Source: a virus. From it: a stretch of 35,521 nucleotides of DNA. The position numbers and the translations under genes were made by a program. The notes below the pieces were generated by a model. The model was not told the origin of the DNA. It ran no database searches and saw only the letters and a list, made by a program, of their open reading frames with translations. This document shows positions 6,164-32,921 of the stretch, piece after piece. The number at the start of each line of letters is the position of its first letter. Position 1 is the stretch's first letter. Location: positions 1 to 35,521 of the IMG/VR virus record IMGVR_UViG_3300009285_006890; one strand, given 5' to 3'.

Positions 6164-6194
6164 CACTCGCGGGATAATTTCTCCTGAGGGGAGG
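6164..6194 (+). promoter_or_regulatory. SD-sequestering hairpin element, copy 1
   Basis: Core CGGGATAATTTCTCC at 6170-6184. The inner GGGA/TCTCC-type stem and the outer CTC/GAGG pairing fold into a stem-loop, and the 3' arm GAGGGGAGG is the SD of the gene at 6201. It lies exactly in one of the few gaps in this packed region. Related copies occur at 9596, 16970, 21496, 26587, 30385 and 32711. Confidence 0.6.
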
Positions 6195-6200
6195 ATCAAG

Positions 6201-6848
6201 ATGCCGGTCGTTCTTGATGTGAGTAAGGAGCAGCAGGTTCCGAAGCGCGTGTTGGAGGATGGAGTTCCGCTGGATTTGGGAGATATTACGAGGGAGGTTG
6301 TGATGACGAAGTATGTCTCCAACGATCCCCTCCACGCAGATTGGCAGCCCTTGGACATTTGGGACGAGGAGGTTACAGCGGACATTGCAGCTCCTGGGGC
6401 GCGTCCTCGAATACAGTTTGTGGACGACACAGGAGCAACTCGGCGTGTGTCGGATGACGACGGTCTCATCATCAAGATACGAGGTACGTTGGCTCGTATC
6501 GTGGGCATGGTGCCAGGGCTGCCGCCGATGAGTGAGGAGGATATTGATAGATATAAGGAGGCGAATCCTCGAGTGTCTATCCCTCTATATCAACAGTGGG
6601 ACTTTCGAGTGCGAGAGGTTCTCAAGACGAATGGGCCGGAGGGACGTAGGAACCTTTTGAAGGGAGAAGATCAAAGGCGCCTATCTGCACAGACGGATCT
6701 CTTCCAAAAGCAGGAGGAGGTGTTCAGCCGTATTCTGGCCATGTTCCAGGCAGGAATGGAAGCGATGCAGAAGCAGGGGACTGTCGCGCCGAATGCGCAG
6801 GCTGTAGTTGATGCGGGGGCGAAGGTGCTCGGAGTGAGGAAAGCGTGA
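6201..6848 (+). CDS. Hypothetical virion/assembly protein
   Basis: A 215-residue protein with GGGGAGG six bases before the ATG; this SD is the 3' arm of the upstream hairpin element. The first 110 residues are acidic and mixed alpha/beta (VLDVSKEQQVPKRVLEDGVPLDLGDI). The C-terminal third (about 155-205) is helical, with QKQEEVFSRILAMFQAGMEAMQKQ likely coiled coil. Its place just before the adaptor-like gene suggests a head-tail joining, scaffolding or tail assembly role. I recognise no family. It overlaps the next gene by GTGA. Confidence 0.6.
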   Translation: MPVVLDVSKEQQVPKRVLEDGVPLDLGDITREVVMTKYVSNDPLHADWQPLDIWDEEVTADIAAPGARPRIQFVDDTGATRRVSDDDGLIIKIRGTLARIVGMVPGLPPMSEEDIDRYKEANPRVSIPLYQQWDFRVREVLKTNGPEGRRNLLKGEDQRRLSAQTDLFQKQEEVFSRILAMFQAGMEAMQKQGTVAPNAQAVVDAGAKVLGVRKA

Positions 6849-7840
6849 CATACCGCGACATCAAGGACGCAATCATATCGTTCTGCGGACAGGAAGCAGG
6901 CGGGGACTTCGAGACTCTTGTAGGAGTCGTGTGCAATGGCGTCTATCGACGCGTGCTGGATGTAGCGGATGTCTCGTTGGAGCAGCGAGTATTCACATTG
7001 ACGACCGCCGTCGGCACGTCACAATACGGGATGCCCTTGTACGTGCGGAAGGTGTTCAACATTGAGGATCCTACGAACGACCGTTTCGTCTGGAGCACGA
7101 CGGCGAGGGCTTTTGACCGCTCGCTTCCTGGAGACGATGCCAGCGGGACACCGACTCAATCTTTCCCTCTTGGGGCGAGAGGTGTGCAGACGCTACCTGC
7201 TAGCGATGGGACGCTGACGTTGGTGAGCGATAGTGCGAACGACGCGGGAAGTAATTACAAGGTGCGGGTGACAGGCTTCAACACCGCCGGCGTGCTTGTG
7301 TCGGAGCTTGTTACAATGAGCGGGGTGACCGGGGTAGCTACAGCAAATAGCTACGACTCCACACTTGGTGTGGAGCGCGTGACGAAGCACCCGGCCGCTA
7401 GCTTAGCGTTTAGTGGGAATGTAACGGTGACAGACGACGACAGTAACACCCTCGCGGTAATCCCGGTTTGGTGGGACTCTCCGGACTACGAGTGGGTTCA
7501 GTTCTACCCGATACCGGATGCAATAGTGTCGTACAACGTGCGCTGTGCAATGCGGAAGCCGCCGCTTGTAAACGACTCGGACTGGCCCGAGTTCGATCAA
7601 GAGTATCACGATCTGCTGATCTGGGGCACGTCTCAGGATCTTCTCCCGACAGTCGGAAAAGGATCTACCGCAGACCGCCACCGTCTGACCTTCCGAGATC
7701 GGATGAAGGACTTTCTCGGGACATCTCGGTACGACTCGAACGCCCTCTGGGTGTTTTCCAACGTGCAGAACGCCGTTGGAGTCCAGAACAGACCGCATAG
7801 ACCCCTCATTGAGGGGGTAGATGTAGGGCTCGCGAGATGA
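6845..7840 (+). CDS. Probable head-tail adaptor / neck protein with an inserted beta domain
   Basis: This 331-residue protein begins at a GTG overlapping the previous TGA, with GAGG five bases upstream. The start (TYRDIKDAIISFCGQ…YRRVLDVADV) is helical like phage adaptor proteins. Residues about 105-200 are a Ser/Thr/Gly-rich beta insertion (LTLVSDSANDAGSNYKVRV). WVQFYPIPDAIVSYNVRCAMRKPP then EFDQEYHDLLIWGTSQDLL (about 218-262) matches the pattern of phage adaptor/connector proteins that pair an 'x-F-P-x-P-d' strand with an 'H.LL…A' helix. Assignment as adaptor is inference from this pattern and from its position before the tail gene. Confidence 0.55.
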   Translation: MTYRDIKDAIISFCGQEAGGDFETLVGVVCNGVYRRVLDVADVSLEQRVFTLTTAVGTSQYGMPLYVRKVFNIEDPTNDRFVWSTTARAFDRSLPGDDASGTPTQSFPLGARGVQTLPASDGTLTLVSDSANDAGSNYKVRVTGFNTAGVLVSELVTMSGVTGVATANSYDSTLGVERVTKHPAASLAFSGNVTVTDDDSNTLAVIPVWWDSPDYEWVQFYPIPDAIVSYNVRCAMRKPPLVNDSDWPEFDQEYHDLLIWGTSQDLLPTVGKGSTADRHRLTFRDRMKDFLGTSRYDSNALWVFSNVQNAVGVQNRPHRPLIEGVDVGLAR

Positions 7841-8058
7841 ATACGTCCGATGGTAGTGTGACCGATTCTGTGCTGCGTACGGTAGTACAGAATGAGAAGC
7901 ACCTCGTTCTCATTGTATTAAAAGGGAAGGAGCATGGGGATGGCTTCGAGTGGGGAGGCACCTTCACTTGCCATTGCAAGGGGATGCCTAGTGGGTGGAA
8001 GACTATAGCGCAAGTCCTCCAACAGGCCGCGAGCACAATGGATGGTAATGATGGCTGA
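7837..8058 (+). CDS. Small hypothetical protein
   Basis: A 73-residue protein with an ATG overlapping the previous stop (ATGA) and no strong SD of its own, so probably translationally coupled. It is acidic to neutral and has one C-x-C pair (FTCHCKG). The last 17 bases overlap the start of the tail gene at 8042. No membrane segment is visible. Its location between the adaptor-like and tail genes suggests a neck or tail assembly factor. Function unknown. Confidence 0.6.
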   Translation: MNTSDGSVTDSVLRTVVQNEKHLVLIVLKGKEHGDGFEWGGTFTCHCKGMPSGWKTIAQVLQQAASTMDGNDG

Positions 8059-9595
8059 GCCGCGGGTTACAGACGCCGAGGTAGCCACAAGCCCGATATA
8101 TCGCATCAAGGGACAGAGATCAAGGTGGAGGTATCCCGACGAGCGTCTGACCGCGGAGCATTGTGAGGTGCTCAGAGATGTGAATATCTCGGAGCGAGGG
8201 GTGGTGGAGAGTCGGAATGGATACACGTATTATAATACTGCTCAAATAGATGGAGGGGAGAGAGCTACAGGGCTGTACCAGGCAACTTTCTCTAGTGGGA
8301 CTACAGCGAGTCTTGTCGTTACTCCGACGAAGGTGTATACGGACGACGGGACGACGCGTACGGATGTGACAGGGACGGCTCTTAGCGGTGGAAGCGATGA
8401 TAGGGTGGAGTTCGCTTTTCTGAAGGACAACATCCTCATCAATAATGGAGTGAACCAGATTCGTATGTATAGCGGTGCAGGGAATACTGCGAATCTCACG
8501 GGGATGCCTTGGACTAAAGCCAAAGGCCTGATGGTGCATAAGAACCTCCTATTCGCGTGGGGGACGACTGAAGGAGGTGTGTACTATCCAACGAGACTCC
8601 GTTGGTGCGATATTAACAGGCAGACATACGTTGTGGACATCACGAAGTGGTTAGACGCAAATAGGTACGAGGTCTACGACGGCGGCCCTGCCATCGTTGG
8701 AGCTGTTGACAATTGGGGAAAGGCGTTGGTTTTCAAGGAGGATGGTCTTTATCCGGGGGAGATCGTGTACGGACAGACTGGCGCATACGACTTTAACCTT
8801 GGAGAGCCTAGAAGAGGCTTCTCTCCCGTGTCGAAGATGAGTCTTGTAGCTCGTCCAGAGTTTGTCTTCGGTGCATCGAGGGAAGGCGCGTTTATCGTCC
8901 TTCCAGATATGAGCGTGAAGATAGTCACGCTGGACGATTCGGAGGAGTGGCTCGGTTTGAGTAAGACGCGCTTGCAGTACGCACAGGCGTTTGTAAGGGA
9001 GAGCGATCACCAGATTCGGGTACTTGTTTCATCTAGCGCGAACACGGATGGACACGACTACGTCATGGTTTACGACTGGGAAATGGGGGATTTGTGGATA
9101 GATAGGCCGAAGCACGTGATGAGCTTCGGTGCTTCTCTAAGGATCAGCGGTCAGGAGCTGGACTGGTTGGCTTCCGTTGGAGGGTATGTGTATAAGGGTA
9201 ACGATAGCACGTATGAGAACGATGCTGGAACGTCGTTCGACTGGCGGATAAAGATGAGCCCGAATGATCTAGGGATGCCTGGAAAACAGAAACATGTGCT
9301 GAACATACGCACTCTGTATAGAGAGAAGGTAGGGTATCAAACGGTTGCGGTGAATGTTTACGTGGACGAGGGGAGGCAAGGCACTGTACAAGGAAGTATC
9401 GGGGTCTCGGACGGCGCGACTTGGGATGACGACGCGTCTACATGGGACTCCGGGCTGAAATGGGAGGGCAGCGGCGCGCAGAGATTCGACACATTCGTGA
9501 ATCGAATCTGCGAGACCGTCTCTCCAGAGTGGACGGGCAGCAACCCGGCTGGGATTGAGGGGTACATAGTTGAGTTCATCCCTCTCGAGGCCTGA
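8042..9595 (+). CDS. Large tail protein (tail tube/nozzle or stabilisation type), probably beta-propeller-like
   Basis: A 517-residue protein; ATGs at 8042, 8048 and 8051 are all possible starts, none with a strong SD. ERGVVESRNGYTYYNTAQ (about 50-67) matches a pattern recurrent in phage tail proteins ('G.l..R.Gyt.yn'). It is followed by many short W/Y/G/D-rich strand repeats (VKDNILINNGVNQ-like, FAWGTTEGGVYYPTRLRW, GKALVFKEDGLYPGE, FVFGASREGAFIVL, YDWEMGDLWIDRP) spaced like propeller blades, as in podovirus tail nozzle and neck-stabilising proteins. It lies between the adaptor-like gene and the fibre gene. The exact family is not certain. Confidence 0.6.
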   Translation: MVMMAEPRVTDAEVATSPIYRIKGQRSRWRYPDERLTAEHCEVLRDVNISERGVVESRNGYTYYNTAQIDGGERATGLYQATFSSGTTASLVVTPTKVYTDDGTTRTDVTGTALSGGSDDRVEFAFLKDNILINNGVNQIRMYSGAGNTANLTGMPWTKAKGLMVHKNLLFAWGTTEGGVYYPTRLRWCDINRQTYVVDITKWLDANRYEVYDGGPAIVGAVDNWGKALVFKEDGLYPGEIVYGQTGAYDFNLGEPRRGFSPVSKMSLVARPEFVFGASREGAFIVLPDMSVKIVTLDDSEEWLGLSKTRLQYAQAFVRESDHQIRVLVSSSANTDGHDYVMVYDWEMGDLWIDRPKHVMSFGASLRISGQELDWLASVGGYVYKGNDSTYENDAGTSFDWRIKMSPNDLGMPGKQKHVLNIRTLYREKVGYQTVAVNVYVDEGRQGTVQGSIGVSDGATWDDDASTWDSGLKWEGSGAQRFDTFVNRICETVSPEWTGSNPAGIEGYIVEFIPLEA

Positions 9596-9623
9596 CCTCA
9601 GGGGAGCATTTCTCGTAAGGGTG
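9596..9623 (+). promoter_or_regulatory. SD-sequestering hairpin element, copy 2 (divergent)
   Basis: GGGGAGCATTTCTCG at 9601-9615 aligns with the shared core. The inner pairing is GGGA/TCTC and the outer arms are CCT/AGG. The 3' arm TAAGGGTG is the SD of the tail fibre gene (ATG at 9628, spacing about four). It starts immediately after the stop of the tail gene. It is the least similar copy. Confidence 0.45.
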
Positions 9624-9627
9624 AAGC

Positions 9628-11424
9628 ATGGCTACTGTCACGAGACCGAGTGAAGCGCTTCCAACCGCAGGAGCAAGGATCAAGTCCGCTCAGGTGACGG
9701 ACTGGATCACGAACATCCTGTCGTTCTTGGAGAGTACAAGCATTGACGAGGCGAATGTAGACCTCAGTGGATCGGATGGGATTGTAGGGAAGTCCACGTC
9801 GCAAACTCTGACCGGGCTGAAAACGTTCGAGTGCACCTCGGCCGCCGCTGGTGGTGTGAGGGAGGTTGTGCAGCTCGGGATAGATCCCGCGTCCGGGACG
9901 GCGGCGGATGGAGATGGCGGCCGTGTTGTAATGTATGCGGATGATGATGGAGGTACCGAAACCGACCTCGTCCATATGGATTGGGTTCTCACGGACGCGT
10001 CTAATGGATCGGAAGATGCCAAAGTTGATATATCCGCTATTGTCGCGGGAACGATGGGGACTGTGTTGGAGCTTGGGTATGATAGCTCAGGAAATGCAGT
10101 CAACACGATTCGGACGAGGGAGGCTATAGCAGCCGCTGTTCGAGACGTTCTTACTTTGGAGTGGGATCCGGACGGCGGGGGCAACGCGACGGACAACTCT
10201 ACTGGGGCGGCGCTGGCCTTCAAGCTGCCAGGGGACGATGACACGCAGGACGTATTCGCTCGAATTGCGATGCTGTGCGTGTCGGACGTGGCTGGGGCTG
10301 AGGAGGGGGAGTTGTCATTCCGACTGGTCAAAGCCGGCACGATAACGGAGTTGCTGACGCTGGCTCCGACCACCGGCCTGACGCTGGGGGTGGATGATAC
10401 CGGCTACGACGCCAAGTTCTTCGGGGCTACGGCGGGCAAGTACATGCAGTGGGATGAGAGCGCCGATGCCCTGCTAGTGCAGGGCTTGCTCTCGGCCGGG
10501 GCGAACGACGGTTGCGCGCTCGGCAGTGCAACGGTGGGCTTCAGCGACGCCTTCTTTGCCAGCGGCGCGGTGCTGAACTTCAATAACGGTGACGTAACGG
10601 TCACCCACGCGGCTAACACGCTGACCTTCGCCGGGGCAACTCTCGGTTACCAATTCAATGGAGCTGTGAACAACGCCATGCTGATCGGCTCCCACGCTAC
10701 CGACGGAGTAGGAGCCAAGATTTACCCCACCACTGCCGCACCAAACGCCATTCCTCTATGGGTGTATCCTACATACAGCGGGGGTAACGGCGAGGACCGC
10801 ACGGTCTACGCCTACAGCATTGCCAGTGTGAATAACTCGGGGTCTATGCAAGGGTTGCGGACATTCGGGTTGATAAATGCGGGGGTCACGTTAGCTACAT
10901 ATTACGGAGCTTACATAGCCAACCCCACGGTCTCTGGAACCCTGACGAACAACTACGGTATCTACCTTGAGAATCAGACGTCCGGCGGCACGAACTACTC
11001 TATCTACTCGGCCGGCGGCGCCGTCAACATTCAGAGTCTTGGCGCTTCGGCGGATGTGCAGACGGACGGGAGCAAGAACCTCACCACGGTATCCGACATG
11101 CGCTGGAAGAACGATTTGGGCCCGATCGAAAAGGCCAGCAAAGTGCTGCGCGCCCTGAAGCCCCACTATTTCACCTGGAAGCGCGATATGACGGGCGACA
11201 ATCAGGAGAGGTCGCCTGAGAAGTTTGCGCGTCGTCCCCGGCTTGCTGGCTTCTTCGCACAGGAGGTCTACGAAGTACTCCCTGAAGGCTCGCCCGGAGG
11301 GGCCAACCTGGATGAAGAAGGCAACGAGCGCTGGGGGTTGAACACTCACGCTATTATGGCCTATATCGTGTCAGCATGGCAGGAGCTTGATGCCCGCGTT
11401 GCGACACTGGAGAAAGTGGCATGA
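9628..11424 (+). CDS. Tail fibre/spike with C-terminal peptidase S74 intramolecular chaperone
   Basis: A protein of 598 residues. Residues 1-70 are probably the virion attachment part. Residues 70-480 are Gly/Ala/Thr/Asp-rich beta repeats with blocks such as GRVVMYADDDGG and VLTLEWDPDGGG, as in trimeric fibres. The C-terminal 110 residues are a peptidase S74/chaperone domain: SDMRWKNDLGPI (predicted catalytic Ser489, with Lys494 nearby), KPHYFTWK, GFFAQEVYEVLPE, LNTHAIMAYIVSAWQELDARVATLE. In this family the domain trimerises the fibre and then cuts itself off. Base use from roughly 10300 onward is richer in GCC/CTG/GGC codons than the first part, which suggests a module exchange. It overlaps the next gene by ATGA. 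Confidence 0.85.
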   Translation: MATVTRPSEALPTAGARIKSAQVTDWITNILSFLESTSIDEANVDLSGSDGIVGKSTSQTLTGLKTFECTSAAAGGVREVVQLGIDPASGTAADGDGGRVVMYADDDGGTETDLVHMDWVLTDASNGSEDAKVDISAIVAGTMGTVLELGYDSSGNAVNTIRTREAIAAAVRDVLTLEWDPDGGGNATDNSTGAALAFKLPGDDDTQDVFARIAMLCVSDVAGAEEGELSFRLVKAGTITELLTLAPTTGLTLGVDDTGYDAKFFGATAGKYMQWDESADALLVQGLLSAGANDGCALGSATVGFSDAFFASGAVLNFNNGDVTVTHAANTLTFAGATLGYQFNGAVNNAMLIGSHATDGVGAKIYPTTAAPNAIPLWVYPTYSGGNGEDRTVYAYSIASVNNSGSMQGLRTFGLINAGVTLATYYGAYIANPTVSGTLTNNYGIYLENQTSGGTNYSIYSAGGAVNIQSLGASADVQTDGSKNLTTVSDMRWKNDLGPIEKASKVLRALKPHYFTWKRDMTGDNQERSPEKFARRPRLAGFFAQEVYEVLPEGSPGGANLDEEGNERWGLNTHAIMAYIVSAWQELDARVATLEKVA

Positions 11425-11791: not shown

Positions 11792-11795
11792 CTCT

Positions 11796-16969: not shown

Positions 16970-17001
16970 GACCCCTTACGGGATCATTTCCCCCAAGGTG
17001 G
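16970..17001 (+). promoter_or_regulatory. SD-sequestering hairpin element, copy 3
   Basis: Core CGGGATCATTTCCCC at 16979-16993, starting directly after the TAA of the giant gene. The inner stem GGGA/TCCC, a 2-by-2 internal loop and the outer CCTT/AAGG pairing form a stem-loop. The 3' arm AAGGTGG is the SD of the gene starting at 17009. Confidence 0.6.
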
Positions 17002-21495: not shown

Positions 21496-21541
21496 GGAAC
21501 AGCCCCTCGGGGGATAATTTCTCCCGAGGGGCGTTCCTTTT
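21496..21541 (+). terminator. Rho-independent terminator ending the late operon (hairpin family member)
   Basis: Left arm GGAAC-A-GCCCCTCGGG (21496-21511) pairs with CCCGAGGGGC-GTTCC (21523-21537), 15 pairs with one bulged A. The loop is GGATAATTTCT, followed by TTTT (21538-21541). It lies six bases after the last plus-strand gene and just before the end of the converging minus-strand gene, so the hairpin may also serve the other strand, although no T-run follows there. The loop-proximal part is the same GGGATAATTTCTCC core found at the six other sites. Confidence 0.9.
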
Positions 21542-22248: not shown

Positions 22249-23413
22249 TTGGAACCTCCTCTTTAGTATATCGAATCGTGCGAGCCACCGCGTCATGCTG
22301 TACGTGCCCCATCTGTGCTAAGCTACTAATAGCCTCCCCAAACTGTGTATATCCAGCGTCGTTGCTGAACATGGAGGCGAGTTCTCGAATAGGCATCTGT
22401 TTCCGTTGCGCTAGAACACGGGAGATACGGAGCTGCAGACCCGCCAAGGGGTTCTGACCCACTCCCGCAAACACGCTAGGCATTTTCCTCTCCGCGAGGG
22501 ACAGAACCGAGATGGCCCTTTGCATGTCCGTTGATGTGATGATCCTCTCGCTCGTGCGCGCGGCGCTGAAGATAGTGCTCATTTTGAATAGATGCGTTGG
22601 ACGACGTTGGATGTAGTAGTCCAAACGGGGCTCTGGAAAGAGTTGTCTGCCTTCTCCTTCTTTTCTCCACTCCGCGTACATATCTCGCGCGTCTGGTTCC
22701 ATGTGGAAGGGGCCGTAGATCCCGTGGATCTCTCCAAGGTCCAGTTGGAGATCCTCCTCCATCTCCTCATCAAGAGTGGGCTCTATAATCATTCGCTCTT
22801 TATCCTCCTCATACACAAACACAACGCGGCTTGTAAAGCCCGAGCCAACCGCTCCTTCCGGCAAAGCTGCTTGAAGTTGGCTTGGAGTCGTAGCCCCGAA
22901 AAGATTCACCCATACGTTCGGAACTTCCTCCTTTCCTCTCGCATACGTGTCGTACTTAAAGCGATCTGTGCAGTCGTACCAGTCACAAAGAGCTGAAAGA
23001 AGCTCTCTAGACTCATACCCGAGAAACACCGTCAGCTCCGTACTGACGATGTTCATAGAGGCGTGCATAACCATTTTGCCATCTGGGCCTTGTCCTGTTT
23101 CGATCTGTTCCTTCAAAGATCCCACGAGCTTTTGCCAGCTCGAGGCGTTCGCTGATGTGTATATGCCGAGCTTGTTCAGGAGGTCACGTCCTGGGCGCAT
23201 TGCCGAGCCTTTGCGGCTTGCTGGAGGGCCGACTAACACGATATACATATTAGGGTAGAACGTCTCGCTACCCCAACGAAGGAAGCACTTCCTCTGCAAG
23301 ACAGCCGCCACCGTCGAGAGTGCAGTCCACCTTCTGAAACTCTCTCTCGGTTCCGTGTTCTGTGTGTATCGTACGAAGGCCTCAATCCAATCATCTCCCG
23401 TGCGTCTCGACAT
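22241..23413 (-). CDS. DUF3987-like ATPase, putative replicative helicase/primase-helicase
   Basis: A 390-residue protein starting at ATG 23413, 23 bases inside the polymerase gene, with GGAGGAG upstream. VLVGPPASRKGSAM (59-72) is a P-loop variant with Lys68 followed by Gly-Ser rather than the usual Gly-Lys-Ser order. NLFGATTPSQLQAALPEGAVGSGFTSRVVFVYEE (about 174-207) matches the 'l.GatqP..l' and 'GF..R' sensor/arginine-finger region of DUF3987-type phage and plasmid proteins, which often stand in for the replicative helicase. The C-terminal 100 residues look like a winged-helix (RISRVLAQRKQMPIRELASMF). Next to a PolA gene, a replisome ATPase is the best reading. Confidence 0.7.
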   Translation of the reverse strand: MSRRTGDDWIEAFVRYTQNTEPRESFRRWTALSTVAAVLQRKCFLRWGSETFYPNMYIVLVGPPASRKGSAMRPGRDLLNKLGIYTSANASSWQKLVGSLKEQIETGQGPDGKMVMHASMNIVSTELTVFLGYESRELLSALCDWYDCTDRFKYDTYARGKEEVPNVWVNLFGATTPSQLQAALPEGAVGSGFTSRVVFVYEEDKERMIIEPTLDEEMEEDLQLDLGEIHGIYGPFHMEPDARDMYAEWRKEGEGRQLFPEPRLDYYIQRRPTHLFKMSTIFSAARTSERIITSTDMQRAISVLSLAERKMPSVFAGVGQNPLAGLQLRISRVLAQRKQMPIRELASMFSNDAGYTQFGEAISSLAQMGHVQHDAVARTIRYTKEEVPNA

Positions 23414-25802
23414 AGCGTCGAAGCTCCTCCGATAGATGATCTGGATTAGCGAAGTCGGTCTTATTCCATTTCCATTTCAGCATCGCGCGCTCGTCTAGCG
23501 TGAATCCGATCTTGGTATCTACAGGGATGCTGAATCGGTGACCCTTGATTGTAAGAGGAGCCTCAAGACGGGTTTTCACGAGGATTATGACGTGGACGAT
23601 TCGGTCATAGCCCGCGCTTAAAGGCATCCAATACCAAAGGCTGTCATGCACCGTATTAGAAAACTGCGCTTCTGGGAAGAGATCCTGACGATAGTATAAG
23701 TACTTTACTCCATCCTCGTTCATCTTCGTCGCGACGGTGGATTGAGGTTTGTAGTCGTATGCCTTCTGATAGAGCTGCGGACCCTCTGGGTCTAGAAAGC
23801 GTCGCGCCCTGCCGTAGCAGTTTGTCAAAATACGGTTATTTCTGGCTAGCTCCTCTCTAATGGACGCGTGCCATTCACGCACTCCAGGATATACCTGATG
23901 ATACCGCTCGTACACATACGTACCGTGCCGCCACTCTAGACTGTAGTGAAGAATGAAGTTCTGCACGCCGAGACCGAAGTTCAGCCCATGATTCGCAACC
24001 TTTCCATCCTGACGGATCTCCTCTGTGCATTTATCTAAAGCCACGTTATGAATCAGGCATCCGGTGAGGCTGTGAATGTCCACGCCAGCCTCCAGTGCCT
24101 CCATCATTCTCGGATCACACGCCTCATACGCGACGATTCGATTCTCCGCCTGGGCTAGATCCTGAGATATGTAGATGCCTTCAGGATCCGCCAGCATAGC
24201 TCGGAGGGTGTCAGAGGGCTGATTCTGGAGATTAGCCCCAGTCCCCCAAATAGTCTTGGAGCTGGAGATCCGTGCCTGCACGGTGCCGACGGGATTGTAG
24301 GAACAGCGAAGGCGGCCATCCTCGTCTACCTTCATTTCGTAGTACGTGGAGAGCATCTTCTGTTCTTTACGAATCATCGTAAGGATCTGGGCCTCACGCA
24401 CCCCATGCGCTGCCATGCGCTCGAGGGCCTTGTCATCTACGGAGGGGCTGCTGTATCCCCCCTTCCTCCATCTCGTGTATGGCTTTATGCCCTTCTCTGT
24501 GTAGAAGTACGCGACGAGCTGCTTGTTGGAGTTGAAGTTCAGCTCCGGGCCGACGATGGCTCGGAGATCCCCCTCCATCTGCACGATGCGCTCGCGGCAG
24601 CTTGCAGCCGCCGCCCGCAGATACTCCCGATCCATCAAGATCCCGCGATCGCTGGCGTAGACAAGCGGGTGAATCAAGGCGCTTTGTTTTAGGTACGTGT
24701 CCCAGTTCCCCGCCTTGATAAGTTCTGCCTTCTGTTGAGGGAATATCTCTAGCAGGACGGCAGAGTCCATCGCGTTGTAGCGACGGAAGAGCTCCTCGGA
24801 GGCAAAGGGATTCTTTCTCCACTCCTTCCCATCCGCTTTGTAGTACGGCTCTCCACCGCAGTATATGGAGGTGAGGAAGTCCAGACCCTTCGGGAAGTCG
24901 GGAAAGAGAATGGCGGCTGCTATCATCGTATCGTGCACGGGACGGACGTAGATGCCGTAACGTCGAAGCATGAAAGTGCAATCAAAGGAGATGTTCTGCC
25001 CGAGCTTCGTTACACTATCACATTCTAGCACCTTCGCAACGAGGAGCATAATCTCCGTCTCGTCATCCGGATTCCATACGTCCTGCCCTCCGCTGATGAG
25101 AGGGATGCAAAGGACATCGTTTGGGGAGACGGCGAAGGAGATATGGCTTAGATGCAAGCCTCGAGTTTCAATATCGTACGAGATGAGGTGTTGGCGGAGA
25201 CATCGAGATAGAAAGGAGCGGATGTCCTCCAGAGTTGGCGCAAGAATCATATCCCGATGTCGAAGGCGGATCTCTGGGAAGTCGCCTTGCCCCTTCGCCC
25301 GCATGAGATCCCGTGTGATGTAGTATCCAAAGAGGGGGTCTCCCTTGAGCGTCGCGCTAGGATGGATGCTGGGGAGGCACTTTCTCTCGGGAAGGAGCGT
25401 GCTAGGAAGGAGAGAGCCTCTCCACTTCGTGATATTCCCGACAATACCAGTGAGCGCGTATGTACTGATAGCGCCAAGAGGCACGAACACGTTGGCGTCG
25501 CACTTCTCAAGGCGCTCACGGAGCGCCGCAACATGCTCGTCGTACGTGGGAGTAGTCCTGACGTTCTTCGTCCCGAGTTTGATGTACGGATCAAGGTCAT
25601 CGTTCTTCGGGAAGAGTTGAAAGAGGTTCTCCAAACGGCAGGCTTGTCTATTCAGGCCTGCGGCAGCACAGAACCTTGTCAACTGCCGCCCGGCTGGACC
25701 GACGAAGGCACCTCCAGAAGCGTGCTCCTCTGCGCCAGGAGCTTGGCCAATGATGCAGACTTTCGCATCTAAAGGGCCCGCTGTATACGGAGCTTGGATC
25801 AC
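23391..25802 (-). CDS. Fusion of uracil-DNA-glycosylase-like domain, 3'-5' exonuclease and family A DNA polymerase
   Basis: An 803-residue protein with a GTG start overlapping the previous stop. Residues 1-175 resemble family 4/5 UDG: VCIIGQAPGAEE (16-26), GAFVGPAGRQL (31-41), FVPLGAISTYAL (106-117), SIHPSATL (145-152). The Cys-x2-Cys pair expected at the N-terminus of iron-sulphur UDGs is absent. Residues about 200-360 are a DEDD exonuclease: SYDIET (Asp210, Glu212), NISFDCTF (Asp274), YNAMD (Tyr342, Asp346). Residues 380-803 are PolA: ARISSS…NLQNQPS, motif A DLAQAENR (Asp548, Glu553), O-helix Arg597/Lys601/His605/Phe609, motif C VHDS (His719, Asp720). His605 stands where E. coli Pol I has Phe762. 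It is the phage replicative polymerase. Confidence 0.9.
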   Translation of the reverse strand: MIQAPYTAGPLDAKVCIIGQAPGAEEHASGGAFVGPAGRQLTRFCAAAGLNRQACRLENLFQLFPKNDDLDPYIKLGTKNVRTTPTYDEHVAALRERLEKCDANVFVPLGAISTYALTGIVGNITKWRGSLLPSTLLPERKCLPSIHPSATLKGDPLFGYYITRDLMRAKGQGDFPEIRLRHRDMILAPTLEDIRSFLSRCLRQHLISYDIETRGLHLSHISFAVSPNDVLCIPLISGGQDVWNPDDETEIMLLVAKVLECDSVTKLGQNISFDCTFMLRRYGIYVRPVHDTMIAAAILFPDFPKGLDFLTSIYCGGEPYYKADGKEWRKNPFASEELFRRYNAMDSAVLLEIFPQQKAELIKAGNWDTYLKQSALIHPLVYASDRGILMDREYLRAAAASCRERIVQMEGDLRAIVGPELNFNSNKQLVAYFYTEKGIKPYTRWRKGGYSSPSVDDKALERMAAHGVREAQILTMIRKEQKMLSTYYEMKVDEDGRLRCSYNPVGTVQARISSSKTIWGTGANLQNQPSDTLRAMLADPEGIYISQDLAQAENRIVAYEACDPRMMEALEAGVDIHSLTGCLIHNVALDKCTEEIRQDGKVANHGLNFGLGVQNFILHYSLEWRHGTYVYERYHQVYPGVREWHASIREELARNNRILTNCYGRARRFLDPEGPQLYQKAYDYKPQSTVATKMNEDGVKYLYYRQDLFPEAQFSNTVHDSLWYWMPLSAGYDRIVHVIILVKTRLEAPLTIKGHRFSIPVDTKIGFTLDERAMLKWKWNKTDFANPDHLSEELRRYVETHGR

Positions 25803-26478: not shown

Positions 26479-26582
26479 TTCCATAGCCTCTTGTTCTGAA
26501 GGGACGATAGCTCGCAGTGGAGGGTAACTAGAAGCGCGAATCGAAAGCGTCTATTCCGGTAAGAGAAGGGCTCGTCGGTCAT
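26475..26582 (-). CDS. Micro-gene, 35 residues
   Basis: A short frame from ATG 26582 with AAGGAG five bases upstream; its TGA overlaps the ATG of the DUF4406 gene (ATGA). The predicted peptide begins MTDEPFSYRNRRFRFALL and is basic with a hydrophobic centre. The SD is the 3' arm of the conserved hairpin at 26587-26618. Good SD, stop/start overlap and a gap otherwise empty make it credible as a leader that couples translation to DUF4406. The peptide itself may have no function. Confidence 0.5.
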   Translation of the reverse strand: MTDEPFSYRNRRFRFALLVTLHCELSSLQNKRLWK

Positions 26583-26586: not shown

Positions 26587-26618
26587 GCTCCTTGCGGGAT
26601 ATTTTCTCCTGAGGGGGC
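26587..26618 (-). promoter_or_regulatory. SD-sequestering hairpin element, copy 4
   Basis: Core CGGGATATTTTCTCC on the plus strand (26595-26609), in the gap right after the ParB-methyltransferase stop. Read on the transcribed minus strand, its 3' arm CAAGGAG is the SD of the micro-gene at 26582. Pairing is partial in the minus-strand RNA and better, using G-U pairs, in plus-strand RNA. Confidence 0.5.
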
Positions 26619-27998
26619 TCAAACCGCCGAGTAGCTCTTATACTTCTTTGGTTCCCCTTCCATCACTTTCCTCACATACGCGGGCTTGTACTCGTTGTTC
26701 TTGTCCAGATCGAACCCGTAGCCCCACATACCAAGGTTCGCTGCCGCGAGCAGTGTGTTCCCACTTCCAAGGAAAGGCACCATCACACACCCATCTGGGA
26801 CGGAGAAGGTCTTGATGATCTCCTCCATCAGCTCAATAGGTCGCTCCGTCGGATGGACCTTGCGGGCGGGCGAGACGGGAGCGTAGTTGAAGACGTTGCT
26901 CCTTCCCTGCTGACGAATAACGGCGTAGGTTCCCTTCCGTGCGTACATGAAGGACTCGTATGTGCTAGAGAGATACAGGTCCGGATGCCATGTTTGACCC
27001 GCAAAGCTGGGCTTGTTCCAGATCGCTGAAACGTTTCCAACAGCGAACCCAGTTTCTAGAAGCAAGTTCTTGATTACCTCATACCATTGTTGCACGTACC
27101 AACAGAGGAGCCAACCGGAAGACCCTATCATCCTGTAGCTCTCCTTGAATACGCGACGCATGAACGCTATATACTCATCGGCGGGAACATCTGTGTATCC
27201 CTCCATTACCTGCGAGTTGGAGTCCTTCACTTTCTGGAGGTCTATTCCATATGGTGGGTCGATCTCAACTAAGGAGGCGTTTCCTCCTGGGAGCTCCGCA
27301 CAACGCTCGAAGAAGTCCCCTTGTGTGTATGCGTTTCCAAGACGGTACTTGATTCGCCCCACTCCGTCGCTTTGAACTACCTTGTCAAAATGCTCCTGCG
27401 CGGCCCTGTCCTCCTGCGTGCGCCGCAGCTTCCGCAAGATGTTCCTTGCCTCGGCCTCATTCTTCGCGGCTACCAGCTCCGGATGATCGTCCAGAGCGTT
27501 CGCTAGAGCGATGCTCTTGCCGACGCTGGTGCGCTCCTTGCCGAGGATGGCGGCTGTATCCGCTATACTATGTCCGCGGTCCATGCCTCCAGGCCCACCG
27601 CTAGTCGCCTCCCCGTACTTCTCCACGAAGAGCTCGTGAATCTCCCTCTCCAGACGGGACTTCTCCTGCCACCGCATGTCCTTGCGATAGATATTCTCAA
27701 CGAGCTCAATCTCCTTTCTATCAAGCTCGTCCATATCTTTCGGAAAGACTCGAGCAGGGATCGGCATGAGCTTCGCTCGAACCATCGCCGCGAAGCGTCT
27801 GCCCCCCGCAAGGAGGAGGAACATCTCCGGATCCTCCGTTTCTTGCACGGCAATAGGCTGAATGAGACCCTTGTCCTTGATAGTCTCCGCCAACTCGTCT
27901 AGATCCTCGTATATCTCCCTTGCCCGATCCTTCATAATAATTTGGAGGGGGTTGAGATTGGCGAAGCGGGCCTCGGAGAGCTGCGTCCACTCTGTCAT
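26619..27998 (-). CDS. ParB-like domain fused to an N4/N6 DNA methyltransferase
   Basis: A protein of 459 residues. Residues 1-120 are a ParB/sulfiredoxin-type domain: NPLQIIMKDRAREI, LAETIKDKGLIQPIAV, LLLAGGRRFAAM (61-72), ELVENIYRKDM (98-108). A KorB/ParB-type helix-turn-helix follows (HSIADTAAILGKERTSVGKSIALA, 143-166). Residues about 215-459 are a methyltransferase: EIDPPYGID (245-253, catalytic DPPY), KVHPTERPIELMEEII, then VPFLGSGNTLLAAANLG (407-423, SAM-binding FxGxG). DPPY before FxGxG is the beta-class order. It probably methylates phage DNA at a sequence chosen by the ParB part, protecting it or marking it. Such fusions are known in phages and plasmids. Target base not determinable. 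Confidence 0.9.
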   Translation of the reverse strand: MTEWTQLSEARFANLNPLQIIMKDRAREIYEDLDELAETIKDKGLIQPIAVQETEDPEMFLLLAGGRRFAAMVRAKLMPIPARVFPKDMDELDRKEIELVENIYRKDMRWQEKSRLEREIHELFVEKYGEATSGGPGGMDRGHSIADTAAILGKERTSVGKSIALANALDDHPELVAAKNEAEARNILRKLRRTQEDRAAQEHFDKVVQSDGVGRIKYRLGNAYTQGDFFERCAELPGGNASLVEIDPPYGIDLQKVKDSNSQVMEGYTDVPADEYIAFMRRVFKESYRMIGSSGWLLCWYVQQWYEVIKNLLLETGFAVGNVSAIWNKPSFAGQTWHPDLYLSSTYESFMYARKGTYAVIRQQGRSNVFNYAPVSPARKVHPTERPIELMEEIIKTFSVPDGCVMVPFLGSGNTLLAAANLGMWGYGFDLDKNNEYKPAYVRKVMEGEPKKYKSYSAV

Positions 27999-28231
27999 GT
28001 AGTCGCCTTCAACTGAGAAAGGAGTTCCTGAACCTGCTCAAGGGTGAGCCGCTTCACGGGATCTTCTTTTGAGGAAGCCTTTGGCTTCCGCTTGGCAGCG
28101 ACTTCCTGTCGCTTCTGAGTCACTGCTTCGAGAATGGCGCGGCGCTGACGACGGATCTCGAGGATGTAGTGAAGCGCCTCGAATCCATCCATCTGTGTGA
28201 TGGAGTAGGAGGAGCTACGCAGATCCGCCAT
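27995..28231 (-). CDS. Small basic hypothetical protein
   Basis: A 78-residue protein; the ATG at 28231 has GGAGG with about six-base spacing, which is better than an in-frame TTG at 28252. Its TGA overlaps the ParB-methyltransferase ATG, so the two are coupled. The middle is strongly basic (RRQRRAILEAVTQKRQEVAAKRKPKASSK), and a helix at the end (LTLEQVQELLSQLKATT) may be a short interaction module. It is probably a nucleic-acid-binding accessory to the fusion gene (inference). No family recognised. Confidence 0.6.
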   Translation of the reverse strand: MADLRSSSYSITQMDGFEALHYILEIRRQRRAILEAVTQKRQEVAAKRKPKASSKEDPVKRLTLEQVQELLSQLKATT

Positions 28232-28490
28232 CCTCCTCCTCCGGTAGTCCAAGAGCCGTTCCTAGATCCCACGTCTTATGCACCATAGCCGTCAGCGTCC
28301 GGACGTGGTCCTTCGTCAATTGCTTTGCTAGACCTTCTATCACCGCTCTATACACATGCTTCCGCATTCCCCAGGGGATATGTGCGGCGAGCACGTCCCA
28401 AGTATCTCTATCTATACTGAATGTCAGACGAACCTGAGCCGGTGGCGCTTTCGTCGGATCGTCTGGCGGTTCTGCGATGAACTTAAGCAT
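28215..28490 (-). CDS. Small hypothetical protein
   Basis: A 91-residue protein that overlaps its neighbours at both ends (eight bases upstream, 17 downstream). After a Pro-rich start comes VRLTFSIDRDTWDVLAAHIPWGMRKHVYRAVIEGLAKQL (20-58). This strand-helix-helix arrangement resembles ribbon-helix-helix-like phage proteins, but the similarity is weak. The end is acidic. It could be a regulator. Function unknown. Confidence 0.55.
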   Translation of the reverse strand: MLKFIAEPPDDPTKAPPAQVRLTFSIDRDTWDVLAAHIPWGMRKHVYRAVIEGLAKQLTKDHVRTLTAMVHKTWDLGTALGLPEEEDGGSA

Positions 28491-29212: not shown

Positions 29213-29223
29213 TTGTTCACTCT

Positions 29224-29243
29224 CGTGTTTGTGCGTGTTTGTG
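29224..29243. repeat. Two tandem copies of a 10-bp repeat in a leader region
   Basis: CGTGTTTGTG occurs twice in direct succession, with CGTGG following, in the 82-base gap before the gene at 29212. No hairpin or promoter is clear in the gap. It could be an operator or a slippage product. Confidence 0.7.
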
Positions 29244-29294
29244 CGTGGTTGTTCCTTCCTCGATCTCGTTGACCTCTCTATTCGCTCTCAGCGG

Positions 29295-30131
29295 TTATGG
29301 TTTGTGTAGCAAGGGAGGGCGGTCCGTCCAAGATTCCTTCGGCGCTCCCGCTTTCTTCATAAGCCCTCGCACGTCGGGATTCTCCAGCATGGAGAACTTA
29401 GAGCCGCCGATGCGACTCTTTGCTTTGTGGTATCCATCCGCGTGTACGAGGACTTTGAAGACAGGGCCGGCGGAACTCTGCTGCGGCCGCATGATCCAAC
29501 ACTCATCGAAGGCAATAGGGAGCTTGAGAGCAAGCTTCCCATACATCAGAGGTCCGGTCTCGATTCTTCCAGTAAGCTCATCCTTGTCTATACCCATATG
29601 GGCAGTCACGACGACGTTGCAGGAGAGGGACATGAGCTGACCGATCCAGTCCACCGCGGTGAGTTGTTGGACGAGATAGTCCTGAAGCTCTGGATTCTGT
29701 CCTCTTCTGGTTTTCCCTCCTTTGTCCTTAGTGCCGGCTATGATAGCGAACATGAGGCTGTCGCTCCACTTGGAGCCGCTGTCCAGCGCGTACGTGGCGA
29801 AGTAGTCGAAGAAGCCTTCCTTCTTACGCTCCGCCATTTCCATCTCCCACTCCCGGAAAGCGAAGGGATCTTTCCAGGAATCCTTCTCCCATCTCGTCTC
29901 GCACACGAGATCCCCCCGCTCAATGAGCGGCTGAAGTACCTGAGTCTTCGTACCGCCTGAATCGAAGGAGTCGATGAAGATGGGGGTTGGGCACGTGGCG
30001 AGCGTGGCGGTCTTGCCTGAGCCGCTATCTCCGAGGAGGAGAATGTTGAAGTAACTGCTCTGGCTCTCGCGATACCGGGCGGCCACGGCTTCCGCGCGTT
30101 GCTGAACCTTCAGGAATCTATCCTCAGGCAT
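29295..30131 (-). CDS. Sak4-like P-loop ATPase (RecA-fold recombination/replication protein)
   Basis: A 278-residue protein; the ATG at 30131 has AAGGAGGG upstream and overlaps the previous gene by eight bases, while an in-frame upstream extension to 30206 is not supported. FNILLLGDSGSGKTATL (28-44) is a clear Walker A. IFIDSFDSGG (51-60), YALDSGSKWSD (Walker B-like Asp followed by Ser) and NVVVTAHMGIDKDE (sensor strand) follow the order of the Sak4/AAA_24 family, which handles ssDNA annealing and strand exchange with phage ssDNA-binding proteins. Its neighbours (ssDNA-binding-like protein and PD-(D/E)XK nuclease) fit this role. Confidence 0.8.
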   Translation of the reverse strand: MPEDRFLKVQQRAEAVAARYRESQSSYFNILLLGDSGSGKTATLATCPTPIFIDSFDSGGTKTQVLQPLIERGDLVCETRWEKDSWKDPFAFREWEMEMAERKKEGFFDYFATYALDSGSKWSDSLMFAIIAGTKDKGGKTRRGQNPELQDYLVQQLTAVDWIGQLMSLSCNVVVTAHMGIDKDELTGRIETGPLMYGKLALKLPIAFDECWIMRPQQSSAGPVFKVLVHADGYHKAKSRIGGSKFSMLENPDVRGLMKKAGAPKESWTDRPPLLHKP

Positions 30132-30420
30132 CTTTTCCCTCCTTGTGCTCCACGAACCAACATGCCTTGCTAACTCCGTTACTCTCATCAAAGTCTCGAA
30201 GCACACGCATTACCATACCACAGGCCTCAGTGATCCTAGCGCGCTCTGCAGGCGTGGCGGCTAGGGACTTTCCCCGCAAGTGAGCCCTGCGAAACGTGAA
30301 GCCTACGAAGGCCGTCAAGACTCCCTTGAGCATCCTCCTCTCAAGTTGCCACTCCTGTGCTGGTGTACGACGCACACGCTTGCGTTGGGGGAAATTATCC
30401 CGGAAGGGTTTCTGTGTCAT
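30124..30420 (-). CDS. Small basic hypothetical protein carrying the hairpin core in its first codons
   Basis: A 98-residue protein with an ATG overlapping the previous stop (ATGA). The first 30 residues are strongly basic (QRKRVRRTPAQEWQLERRM), followed by mixed helices (GVLTAFVGFTFRRAHLRGKSLAA; AERARITEACGMVMRVLRDF). The codons for residues 4-13 contain CGGGATAATTTCCCC, the core of the dispersed hairpin family, so the element is translated here as Phe-Arg-Asp-Asn-Phe-Pro. It may be a nucleic-acid-binding partner of the nuclease and ATPase on either side. Function unknown. Confidence 0.6.
   Translation of the reverse strand: MTQKPFRDNFPQRKRVRRTPAQEWQLERRMLKGVLTAFVGFTFRRAHLRGKSLAATPAERARITEACGMVMRVLRDFDESNGVSKACWFVEHKEGKDA
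30385..30412 (-). promoter_or_regulatory. Hairpin element, copy 5, inside a coding sequence
   Basis: Minus-strand core CGGGATAATTTCCCC (30388-30402) with outer CCTT/AA pairing, nearly the same as copy 3 (16970). It begins about eight bases after the ATG of the gene at 30420. Because it is close to the start codon it could still affect translation initiation, but unlike the other copies it does not contain an SD. Confidence 0.45.
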
Positions 30421-31397
30421 ACGGTTAGCTCCTCCTTATGATACTGCCTTCGAGGATCCCACGTGTCGGTGACAAACCCACTTGGGATCTCTTCTACATG
30501 CTGAAGAGGATTGGTCCACACGCTACAGTAATCCAAGAAGGGGCAGACTCCATAGCCCGTACAGCTCTCCGTATTCTTCGGGAACGCAAGCATCACATCC
30601 TGCCCTTCCATCTCTGATGTGAGAATATCGTGCTGCATCTCGATCTCGTCGAACCAATGCACGGCCTCGGCCAGCCACGCGTCCATCTGCCTCGAGTTCT
30701 TCCTAATAGGCACACGGTGAAACTCGTTATCTGTGGCGTTTGCGTACGGCGTTCCATCGCGCTTTATGCGTGGAGCATTCTGCACGAACACGCCATTGAT
30801 GAGGACTCCATATACCTCCTCTGGAGGGAAGAGGCAGTACAGCACGTGAGTGTACGCGCCTCCCTGCATCTTCTGCCTCCACTGCGCGGCCCACTTCCCT
30901 GTGAAGTGACTGGAGGTCTTGTGCTCCAAGCTGAAGTAGCCCCGTTCGTCGTAACAGATGAGGTCCGTCTTGAAGTGAAGCACTCGCGTGCTAGAGATAG
31001 GCACCGTGCCCGCGGTCTCTACATGCAGCACATCGAAGCAGTCCTCTCTATGATGCAGGACGTATTGCTGCAAGGCGCGAAGCGCGTTCTCTGGAGTCTT
31101 TGGGGCGTTCGCCTCCGTCTCCTCAGGGCTGAAGCTCTTCTCGTATTCCGTGTAGAAGGCCATGAAGGCTTCTGAGAGGAGGGATGGTAGGTCCTTGCCT
31201 ACCTGTGTGTAGCGAGGTGTCGAGGCAGAGTAAAGAACCTCCATTGCTAAGTGCCAGGCGCGGCCGAAGACGAGATGCACGTTAGGCTGCGCCCATTGCC
31301 AGTGAAGCACGCGCTCGAAGAAGTAGCGACGCGGACAGGTCATGTAGTTCTGGATCTTGGAGGCGTCGAGGACGCTCCATATTTCCTGCTCTTTCAT
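30417..31397 (-). CDS. PD-(D/E)XK nuclease, Cas4/RecB-like with iron-sulphur cysteines
   Basis: A 326-residue protein; AAGGAG precedes ATG 31397. SKIQNYMTCPRRYFFERVL (13-31) gives the first iron-sulphur Cys (21) in the usual 'S.i..y..CP..f' motif. FGRAWHLAMEVLY (44-56) is motif I (His49). FKTDLICYDERGYFSLEHKTSS (142-163) supplies the catalytic Asp145 and Glu158-x-Lys160. MQGGAYTHVLY (177-187) is the QxxxY motif. CTGYGVCPFLDYC (279-291) gives the last three Cys. This is the complete AddB/Cas4-type layout. It probably resects DNA ends for recombination with the ATPase and ssDNA-binding-like protein downstream. Confidence 0.9.
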   Translation of the reverse strand: MKEQEIWSVLDASKIQNYMTCPRRYFFERVLHWQWAQPNVHLVFGRAWHLAMEVLYSASTPRYTQVGKDLPSLLSEAFMAFYTEYEKSFSPEETEANAPKTPENALRALQQYVLHHREDCFDVLHVETAGTVPISSTRVLHFKTDLICYDERGYFSLEHKTSSHFTGKWAAQWRQKMQGGAYTHVLYCLFPPEEVYGVLINGVFVQNAPRIKRDGTPYANATDNEFHRVPIRKNSRQMDAWLAEAVHWFDEIEMQHDILTSEMEGQDVMLAFPKNTESCTGYGVCPFLDYCSVWTNPLQHVEEIPSGFVTDTWDPRRQYHKEELTV

Positions 31398-31401
31398 CTT
31401 C

Positions 31402-31716
31402 TCACTCCTTGTTCAAACATAGCTTATGATGCACATATCTATCCTTCCCATCTTTCTCGAACTTCCATAGAAGCAGATTCAACCTTCCGTGCATAGCGGC
31501 AAAGACCGCACACGCAACGCTGCACATGACTGTGGGACCCGAGACGAGGATGTAGTCCTCTGGCGTAGAGTGTCTCATGCAGGTACGGAACGTGCGGTGC
31601 ATGGTAGTCACCGCGAACTTGTCTACAAGCCCCACAGTCATGTGGATTAGATTCCCGTAGCGTTCGGCATCAGCCATATAGTGACCGCTGTCGTTCACCA
31701 CGAATACGCTCGGCAT
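31402..31716 (-). CDS. Conserved phage protein of unknown function
   Basis: A 104-residue protein; the ATG at 31716 directly follows the previous stop and is preferred to an in-frame extension to 31734. The pattern MPSVFVVNDSGHYMADAERYG, then EDYILVSGPTVMCSVACAVFAAMHGRLNLLLW, is one I recognise from phage genomes: a small alpha/beta protein with a 'N.(s/g)GH' start and a 'Llsg…n..a….f…hg.vnlLi…' core. Its biochemical role is not known to me. It lies in the recombination module next to the Cas4-like nuclease. Confidence 0.7.
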   Translation of the reverse strand: MPSVFVVNDSGHYMADAERYGNLIHMTVGLVDKFAVTTMHRTFRTCMRHSTPEDYILVSGPTVMCSVACAVFAAMHGRLNLLLWKFEKDGKDRYVHHKLCLNKE

Positions 31717-31718
31717 GG

Positions 31719-32180
31719 TTAGTCCTGAGACCAAGTAGCGAGGACCTTCTCCATATGCTCTTTACTAACGCGAAGAGCGAAAAGCTCCTGTTCGTGTAGG
31801 CGCGTTTCATACGTCCGCAGGACATCCTCGATATTGGCCGCGAGACCTGCCACACGCCACTTCGCGGAGTTGCGCTGCTGTGCATCGGAGAGGCACACGC
31901 GACGCTGCGCGCTCATCTTCTTTCCCCTTTTTTCGTCACCGACCTGCTCACACTTACGGCAGATCATTCCGGTGATCCTCTCAACCATATTCGGCATCCG
32001 CCACTCATTGGCCCCACAAGATGGGCAGGAATGATCTAGTCGATGCACGTTCCACGGTGGGGCCTCATCTTCAGGAAGGCGTGCTTCCCATGCCTCGACG
32101 ATCTGGGTCTTGCTCATCAGGCTGGCATTGAAACGCTCGACCTTCGTCAGCTTCGTCCGTTTCGTCTGCCTGTTACTCAT
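31719..32180 (-). CDS. Hypothetical protein with a zinc ribbon
   Basis: A 153-residue protein starting at ATG 32180, with GGAGG nine bases upstream. The frame stays open to 32516, but that extension is Arg/Gly/Pro-rich and lies across another gene and a hairpin, so it is not coding. HSCPSCGANEW … GMICRKCEQVG gives two C-x2-C pairs 20 or so residues apart, a classic zinc ribbon. The flanks are basic, and a C-terminal helix follows (NIEDVLRTYETRLHEQELFALRVSKEHMEKVL). Likely a DNA- or RNA-binding accessory. Family not recognised. Confidence 0.65.
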   Translation of the reverse strand: MSNRQTKRTKLTKVERFNASLMSKTQIVEAWEARLPEDEAPPWNVHRLDHSCPSCGANEWRMPNMVERITGMICRKCEQVGDEKRGKKMSAQRRVCLSDAQQRNSAKWRVAGLAANIEDVLRTYETRLHEQELFALRVSKEHMEKVLATWSQD

Positions 32181-32215
32181 TGCAGCGCCTCCATAAATAC
32201 CCTCGAAACCTCGAC

Positions 32216-32251
32216 GGAAGCCGCCCGCTCCCGGTAGTGCGGGCGGCTTCC
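32216..32251 (-). terminator. Very strong 13-bp hairpin in the intergenic gap (possible terminator or RNA-processing site)
   Basis: GGAAGCCGCCCGC and GCGGGCGGCTTCC pair perfectly around a 10-base loop in the 113-base gap between the genes starting at 32180 and ending at 32294. No T-run follows on either strand, so a classic rho-independent terminator is doubtful. It may be a rho- or factor-assisted stop, an RNase III site or an mRNA-stabilising stem. Confidence 0.5.
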
Positions 32252-32293
32252 CTGATACTAGCGAAGTTACAGCGCCGGGCGCTAGCTCCTTCC

Positions 32294-32686
32294 CTACACC
32301 TCCACGCCCTGGAGGGCTGCCAACTGCGCCTCCAATTGGGCCTTGAGGTCTTCCAGCGTAATCTTCTTGGAAGTCACCATCGTGACCAACTGCGCGATGG
32401 GGTCTATTGCGACGCGGGTGCGGTGGGTCACGCCGGGGACGTAGTTCTGACCGGCCGCGATGGCGTCCGCGGTGCTCGCCCCCTTGTCCAGAAGGGTTCG
32501 GACAATGGACTGGCACTTGATGACGGCCTGCTGCTCGTAGAGGTTGAACACAACGTCCTCTCCTACGAGGGCAATAGCATCTGCCAGGTTGAGGCCGAAA
32601 GACTTTTCAAACTCCACAGTGCGCCCGGACTTCACCGACTTGACCTGGATGAGGTTCTGCACAGCCTGCTCAGTTTGTTCGGTCAT
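32294..32686 (-). CDS. Hypothetical early protein (first gene after the leftward promoter)
   Basis: A 130-residue protein with GAGG six bases before ATG 32686. The N-terminal half (NLIQVKSVKSGRTVEFEKSFGLNLADAIALVGEDVVFNLYEQQAV) looks alpha/beta with a short helix-turn segment. The middle (TADAIAAGQNYVPGVTHRT) and C-terminal helix (ITLEDLKAQLEAQLAALQGVEV) suggest an oligomeric protein. As the first gene after a consensus promoter it should be made early and in quantity, fitting a DNA-binding or host-takeover role, but this is inference. No family named. Confidence 0.6.
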   Translation of the reverse strand: MTEQTEQAVQNLIQVKSVKSGRTVEFEKSFGLNLADAIALVGEDVVFNLYEQQAVIKCQSIVRTLLDKGASTADAIAAGQNYVPGVTHRTRVAIDPIAQLVTMVTSKKITLEDLKAQLEAQLAALQGVEV

Positions 32687-32921
32687 CTTGTTCCTCTCTC
32701 GGTATGTGTCGTCCTCGCGGGATATTTTCCCTAGAGGGTGAGATCGCGAGAGGGGAGGCTGTTTCTCTCCCCAGAGACTGCGTCTGCCGTGGGACTGTCA
32801 AATGGCTGTTGCAGAGATCCTCCCCTCTCGCTCGCCGCACACTTCTTGTCACGACATAGGCCTGTTCTCCTTATCAACGTGTCGAGTTCCTCCCCTTCAC
32901 TACTCTGTATCAACATGATGT
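32687..32921 (-). promoter_or_regulatory. Long structured leader between the leftward promoter and the gene at 32686
   Basis: About 235 bases without a convincing gene. It holds a perfect 13-bp inverted repeat, GCGAGAGGGGAGG (32746-32758) against CCTCCCCTCTCGC (32819-32831), with a 60-base spacer, and hairpin family copy 6 at 32711-32740. A short frame could open at the ATG at 32916, which would be nearly leaderless, or at an SD-preceded TTG near 32877. Composition does not support either strongly. Confidence 0.45.
32711..32740 (-). promoter_or_regulatory. Hairpin element, copy 6
   Basis: Plus-strand core CGGGATATTTTCCCT (32718-32732) with CCTC/GAGG outer pairing and a 2-by-2 internal loop. 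It lies about 25 bases upstream of the ATG at 32686. In minus-strand RNA its 3' arm reads CGAGGAC, SD-like, but no start codon follows at the right distance, and the gene has a separate SD. Confidence 0.5.

Follow-up and report, generated by a model that had tools for sequence, protein, structure and literature searches.

The whole stretch of DNA analyzed here, a 35.5-kb IMG/VR phage fragment (the window), contains at least eight copies of a 25-bp dyad that probably act as dispersed operators, that is, as sites for one putative dimeric DNA-binding regulator, which is most likely encoded by the phage itself. A rightward structural block (positions 1 to 21490) converges in the window with a leftward early block encoding an endolysin, a DUF3987 primase, a UDG-PolA polymerase, a ParB-N/methylase fusion, a Sak4-like protein, and an exonuclease. 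Seven copies had been described in a sequence-only reading as a dispersed hairpin family, and all seven were recovered as exact 25-bp units (0.00 expected in dinucleotide shuffles). Their consensus in the correct register was CCTY-NN-GGGA-TAWTT-TCYC-NN-RAGG, and the layout attributed to them, with inner 4-bp half-arms flanking 5 AT-rich bases, a 2-by-2 mismatch, and outer CCTY/RAGG arms, was confirmed on the sequence. An eighth copy at 1670 to 1694, missed in that reading, scored 20.0 with a symmetric matrix (shuffle maximum, 13.2), and the unit of the window lineage is the dyad CCTY-NN-GRGA-WAWTW-TCYC-NN-RAGG. Seven of the eight copies were wholly noncoding, with the gene that follows the copy at 1670 taken to start at ATG 1703, compared to 2.7% of 25-nt positions in the window; the exception, at 30383, falls inside the start of an ORF (30124 to 30420). 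Copies were found in either orientation relative to genes. They are listed below with orthologous positions in related IMG/VR contigs of two further groups, a third group and one that we take to be marine from its sample numbers.

1670 to 1694, no strand assigned: copy 8 (new; symmetric matrix scan and orthology table), ACTCAGGAGAATATTTCCCTGGAGT; GGAG arm 8 nt before ATG 1703; orthologous interval in marine G17 (19810) and third-group G20 (10599) and L046 (10179).
6165 to 6189, plus strand: copy 1, ACTCGCGGGATAATTTCTCCTGAGG; after stop 6163 and 11 nt before ATG 6201; orthologues in third-group G20 (13929), G21 (31113), and L091 (2361).
9596 to 9620, plus strand: copy 2, CCTCAGGGGAGCATTTCTCGTAAGG; boundary of amidase-like and tail-fiber genes; orthologues in marine G7 (24055), G17 (27125), L051, L063, L070, and L092.
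16974 to 16998, plus strand: copy 3, CCTTACGGGATCATTTCCCCCAAGG; after the 1591-aa gene; orthologues in marine L057 (3203) and third-group G21 (18614).
21505 to 21529, plus strand: copy 4, CCTCGGGGGATAATTTCTCCCGAGG; between the convergent late (plus) and early (minus) blocks.
26590 to 26614, plus strand: copy 5, CCTTGCGGGATATTTTCTCCTGAGG; just past the stop (26619) of the minus-strand ParB-N/methylase gene and 7 nt before a 35-aa ORF at 26582.
30383 to 30407, minus strand: copy 6, CCTTCCGGGATAATTTCCCCCAACG; weakest outer arm; after the exonuclease stop 30417.
32713 to 32737, plus strand: copy 7, CCTCGCGGGATATTTTCCCTAGAGG; 26 nt upstream of ATG 32686 (minus-strand 130-aa early gene); orthologues in marine L058 (3077), L060 (321), L077 (5186), and others and in third-group G21 (1207).

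The downstream arm had been read as the Shine-Dalgarno sequence of the following gene, which is plausible for ATGs 6201, 9628, 17009, and 26582 (the last opening only the 35-aa ORF), and also for ATG 1703, but is not general. The copy at 21505 scored as a terminator (13-bp stem with 10 GC pairs; tail GTTCCTTTTG), and the suggestion that one copy doubles as the convergent terminator was upheld; in the terminator scan, which covered the copies at 21505, 26590, 30383, and 32713, a weak overlapping match was obtained at 26590 and none at 30383 or 32713. Tight spacing is probably why the dyads overlap Shine-Dalgarno sequences and one terminator.

Three versions of the dyad, with the common layout 4+2+13+2+4, were found in related IMG/VR contigs: GRGA in the window, L012, and L026; TAACA/TGTTA in the marine group; and GTGA/TCAC in the third group. 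A scan of viral contigs with the window pattern returned three copies in L012 and one in L026, both of which carry terminase-large and portal genes (L012 also the scaffold gene); because L012 and the window have little gene content in common, their kinship is judged from the element that both carry and from synteny with the other groups. Single matches in L008 to L011, L013 to L025, L027, and L028 were at chance level, and weak homology to these phages was found among those contigs only in L014 and L023. Seventeen further portal relatives (57 to 64%) lacked the window version, and many of them carried a different 25-bp dyad, ACTC-YR-TAACA-NNN-TGTTA-YR-GAGT, at the terL-portal boundary, where it was likewise one of several dispersed copies. 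This marine motif is restricted to the lineage: searched by sequence alone in IMG/VR viral contigs, it gave 34 stretches, all on contigs with homologues of window or L012 genes, and in 84,980 bacterial and archaeal species genomes it gave two isolated matches, about the chance number, neither in a relative. The third-group dyad, CT-NNN-GTGA-NNNNN-TCAC-NNN-AG, was reached through two protein searches, with six copies in G20, seven in G21 (exact or one-mismatch), two in L046, and one in L091. Relatives of the window were not found among phage records (megablast) or in a phage collection (portal search), and portal alignment against genome contigs gave no match. The nearest named phage was Desulfofustis phage OP947158 (about 35% in the polymerase), in which a scan for such dyads found none. 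The scans used detected no dyad of any version in AT-rich relatives (L102 to L109); one of them, L105, has dispersed near-identical promoters (TTGACAACTTTnTATAATGTATTATATT) at 234 to 285, 2159 to 2210, 4119 to 4170, and 6235 to 6286.

Sites of different versions occupy orthologous positions, as judged from flanking-gene homology plus gene calls. All three versions were found at the terL/portal boundary and in the interval after the MFMQTVN gene (window 1670). The boundary between the tape measure gene and the next gene carries a dyad in the window (16974), marine L057, and third-group G21, and the position upstream of the 130-aa early gene does so in the window (32713), many marine contigs, and G21 (1207). 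The amidase/tail fiber boundary is occupied in the window (9596) and the marine group, with a degenerate two-mismatch copy at G21:27645, and the boundary of window copy 6165 is also occupied in three third-group contigs. Dyads were shared by the marine and third groups at the FmdB/scaffold boundary and by the marine group and G20 (position 62) in the late leader upstream of terS. Some sites were private to one group (21505 and 30383), and overall density was about one copy per 3 to 9 kb over both genome arms. In G20 (L118, 2903 to 3394), an HNH endonuclease gene separates the terL-portal dyad from the portal gene.

A promoter module, TTG-N20-TAYATT (17-bp spacer), was found 14 to 69 nt downstream of the marine early and late control-region copies, with a chance of 0.0015 to 0.0115 per site for a module that was chosen after inspection of these flanks. 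Third-group control-region copies likewise lay upstream of TTG-N20-TAYATT promoters, and because the copies in both groups are upstream, these promoters do not transcribe them. A promoter scan of the window, G21, and G20 (at least 11 of 12 matches) gave only one strong promoter in the window, as follows.

32922 to 32950, minus strand: sigma70-like promoter TTGACA-17-TATATT, pointing toward copy 7 and the 130-aa gene.

G21 contained one promoter, reading toward the orthologous copy at 1207, and G20 contained one, directly after the late-leader copy. One promoter type is thus found beside dyads of different versions. At the 130-aa early gene the site is downstream of the promoter, unlike the marine and third-group control-region copies, and since the distance elsewhere varies from 14 to 69 nt, no single promoter geometry applies. 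No recognizable promoter was found at copies inside operons; this and the variable geometry weigh against the operator reading. Just upstream of the marine late-leader dyad is a second conserved inverted repeat (CAGCTCCTAAAAATTTCTGAGCT plus a T run; L037, about 2100 to 2200; L043, about 1330 to 1400), which is perhaps the terminator of the opposite block.

The dyads had been proposed to act as RNA hairpins that mask Shine-Dalgarno sequences or guide RNA processing. In all three versions, several boundaries have the right arm where a Shine-Dalgarno sequence would lie, and RNA folds of single copies reach -4.5 to -18 kcal/mol; however, changes in the arms were not compensatory. Among 38 distinct marine copies, 1 cell was changed on both sides, compared to 10.8 in shuffles, and covariation was 0.065, compared to 0.111 in shuffles (all 500 shuffles equal or higher), values from related, nonindependent contigs that are indicative in strength and opposite in direction to an RNA stem. 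Pairing at variable pairs in the small window-lineage and third-group sets was no better than chance. The most variable pair read U-G 11 times and C-A 12 times; therefore, the sense strand was not favored. The 2-by-2 mismatch positions were unpaired in most copies, both orientations were used, the marine and third-group control-region copies lay upstream of promoters, and no Rfam family matched above the gathering score. The inner arm took three sequences, one per group, with architecture and location constant. A shared RNA fold under selection was not supported, and the translational or RNA-processing mechanism, already largely refuted, is very improbable; of the conservation anticipated in relatives, the element itself was kept at orthologous sites, but paired changes were rarer than in shuffles. 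Each half fits a half-site consensus independently, and copies deviating in both halves were few and avoided, the pattern that would be expected if a protein needed at least one good half.

The main rival to the operator reading, although an unlikely one, is that the dyads are maintenance or architecture sites, at which a phage DNA-organizing protein would be loaded (parS/KorB-operator-like, for replication, condensation, or packaging) at gene boundaries free of coding constraint. The spacing of the copies on both arms, their independence of orientation, the flexible promoter distance, and the absence of visible lysogeny signs are consistent with such a role. Against it, specific orthologous boundaries are occupied, and copies lie next to the early and late promoters and that of the 130-aa gene, a placement that suggests expression control; the ParB-like protein of the window is a ParB-N/methylase fusion; and OP947158, a distant relative with an annotated gene for a ParB-like partition protein, lacks such dyads. 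Binding by a host transcription factor, with the three versions reflecting different hosts, is highly unlikely: the third version loosely resembles what we take to be a CRP-type site (TGTGA-N5-TCACA), but the outer arms are common to all versions, and the two genomes with the marine motif have it once each, far short of a host regulon. CtrA sites in phages of Alphaproteobacteria are a precedent for dyad operator sites in phage genomes, although these serve a host regulator and cluster in promoter regions, (PMC9437464), whereas no host regulon of marine-motif sites was found here. Retention of boundary (linker) sequences for homologous recombination between modules would account for near-identical short sequences at several module boundaries, but dyad symmetry, independent half-sites, and coherent change within lineages would go unexplained, and this possibility is extremely remote.

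Under the operator reading, the early and late control regions would carry sites, as would block boundaries within operons. Half-sites read inward are CCTY-NN-GRGAWA in the window, WCTC-YR-TAACAW in the marine group, and CTY-RT-GTGAWW in the third group, so that an outer CT(C) contact would have been kept and an inner contact changed at all sites together. We infer a protein, dimeric binding, and an effect, of which the most likely would be stoperator-like control of transcription per block: sites beside promoters would set initiation, and sites inside operons would slow or stop elongation. Such block control appears to fit the site positions best. Tentatively, and with less confidence than in the operators themselves, the dyads may form a genome-wide operator network without visible lysogeny genes, in which the recognition sequence would have undergone at least two coherent switches across several orthologous sites while the outer CT stayed constant; this could be an immunity-group-like self/non-self or timing system in lytic phages. 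The dyads give an uncultured, widely recovered phage group a regulatory code legible in the sequence itself: a site, the logic of its half-sites, and, at matching boundaries, three specificities. The long-standing puzzle of start-associated inverted repeats in phages becomes testable, because one protein should show changes in its recognition part that accompany the natural specificity switch.

Among known systems, the dyads would seem to work most like the extended start-associated sequences (ESAS) of cluster K mycobacteriophages and also like L5 stoperators and SPBRE/MrpR. The sequence-only reading had likewise seen a phage-specific family placed block by block with the start-associated logic of cluster K, and this comparison stands. 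ESAS are inverted repeats upstream of start codons, conserved gene by gene, with a subcluster-specific consensus and arms without compensatory changes, and their authors, too, took them for a DNA-binding site, given the lack of covariation between the arms (PMC3203893). Arms that do not covary and a group-specific consensus were both found here, and the ESAS are a closer analogue than the start-associated repeats themselves. ESAS have 17-bp arms with a variable spacer of 4 to 13 bp, are tied to a 13-bp SAS, and are confined to the nonstructural half (PMC3203893), whereas the dyads have a fixed 25 bp and occupy both genome arms, including structural boundaries and control regions; the repeat search reported no accompanying 13-bp SAS-like repeat. 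L5/D29 stoperators share the many intergenic copies, with one near the main promoter, and a consensus that varies among related phages (PMC5712189), and multiple dispersed intergenic copies of one operator-like site were found here. Stoperators, however, are 13-bp asymmetric sites oriented with transcription in temperate cluster A phages with a known repressor (PMC5712189), whereas the dyads are symmetric and unoriented, and no integrase or repressor was seen on the incomplete contigs. Stoperators are known from temperate phages, and the lack of any lysogeny sign in these incomplete contigs counts against the operator model. Because it is symmetric, of fixed length, and without an SAS, the dyad is a member of neither ESAS nor stoperators. 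SPBRE of Bacillus phage SPbeta, a repeated intergenic element found in silico, was proved to be the operator of the master regulator MrpR; it is a 15-bp motif in prophage promoter regions, and no MrpR-like binder was found here (PMC10516654).

Searches for the binder covered HTH_3, integrase, and resolvase families in 12 contigs, all incomplete, and found none; HMM searches with small early proteins gave weak or no matches. These negative results also weigh against the operator reading. One small protein was considered as a binder.

28215 to 28490, minus strand: small protein with a predicted strand-helix-helix order (ribbon-helix-helix-like).

Its RLTF strand is identical in the window, marine, and third-group proteins, but the structure model was of low confidence and matched no PDB fold or CopG profile, and the protein was not supported as the binder. 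The 130-aa early protein gave a poor structure model, and the first marine early gene product, e3833, showed no significant domain.

Other ORFs of the window encode fused or combined domains. The fusion at 26619 to 27998 joins a ParB N-terminal domain to an N4/N6 DNA methylase (kept in marine relatives at 45 to 46%), and the ORF at 23391 to 25802 carries a uracil-DNA glycosylase domain N-terminal to a family A DNA polymerase with a 3'-5' exonuclease (Pfam). A single structural-block gene (2844 to 4130), kept in relatives, combines glycosyltransferase family 2 and methyltransferase domains. An array of 9-nt repeats (GCGCATCCC/ACGCAGCCC) at 34191 to 34379 lies within a minus-strand ORF (34045 to 35073), where translation of the reverse strand gives a short periodic peptide repeat.
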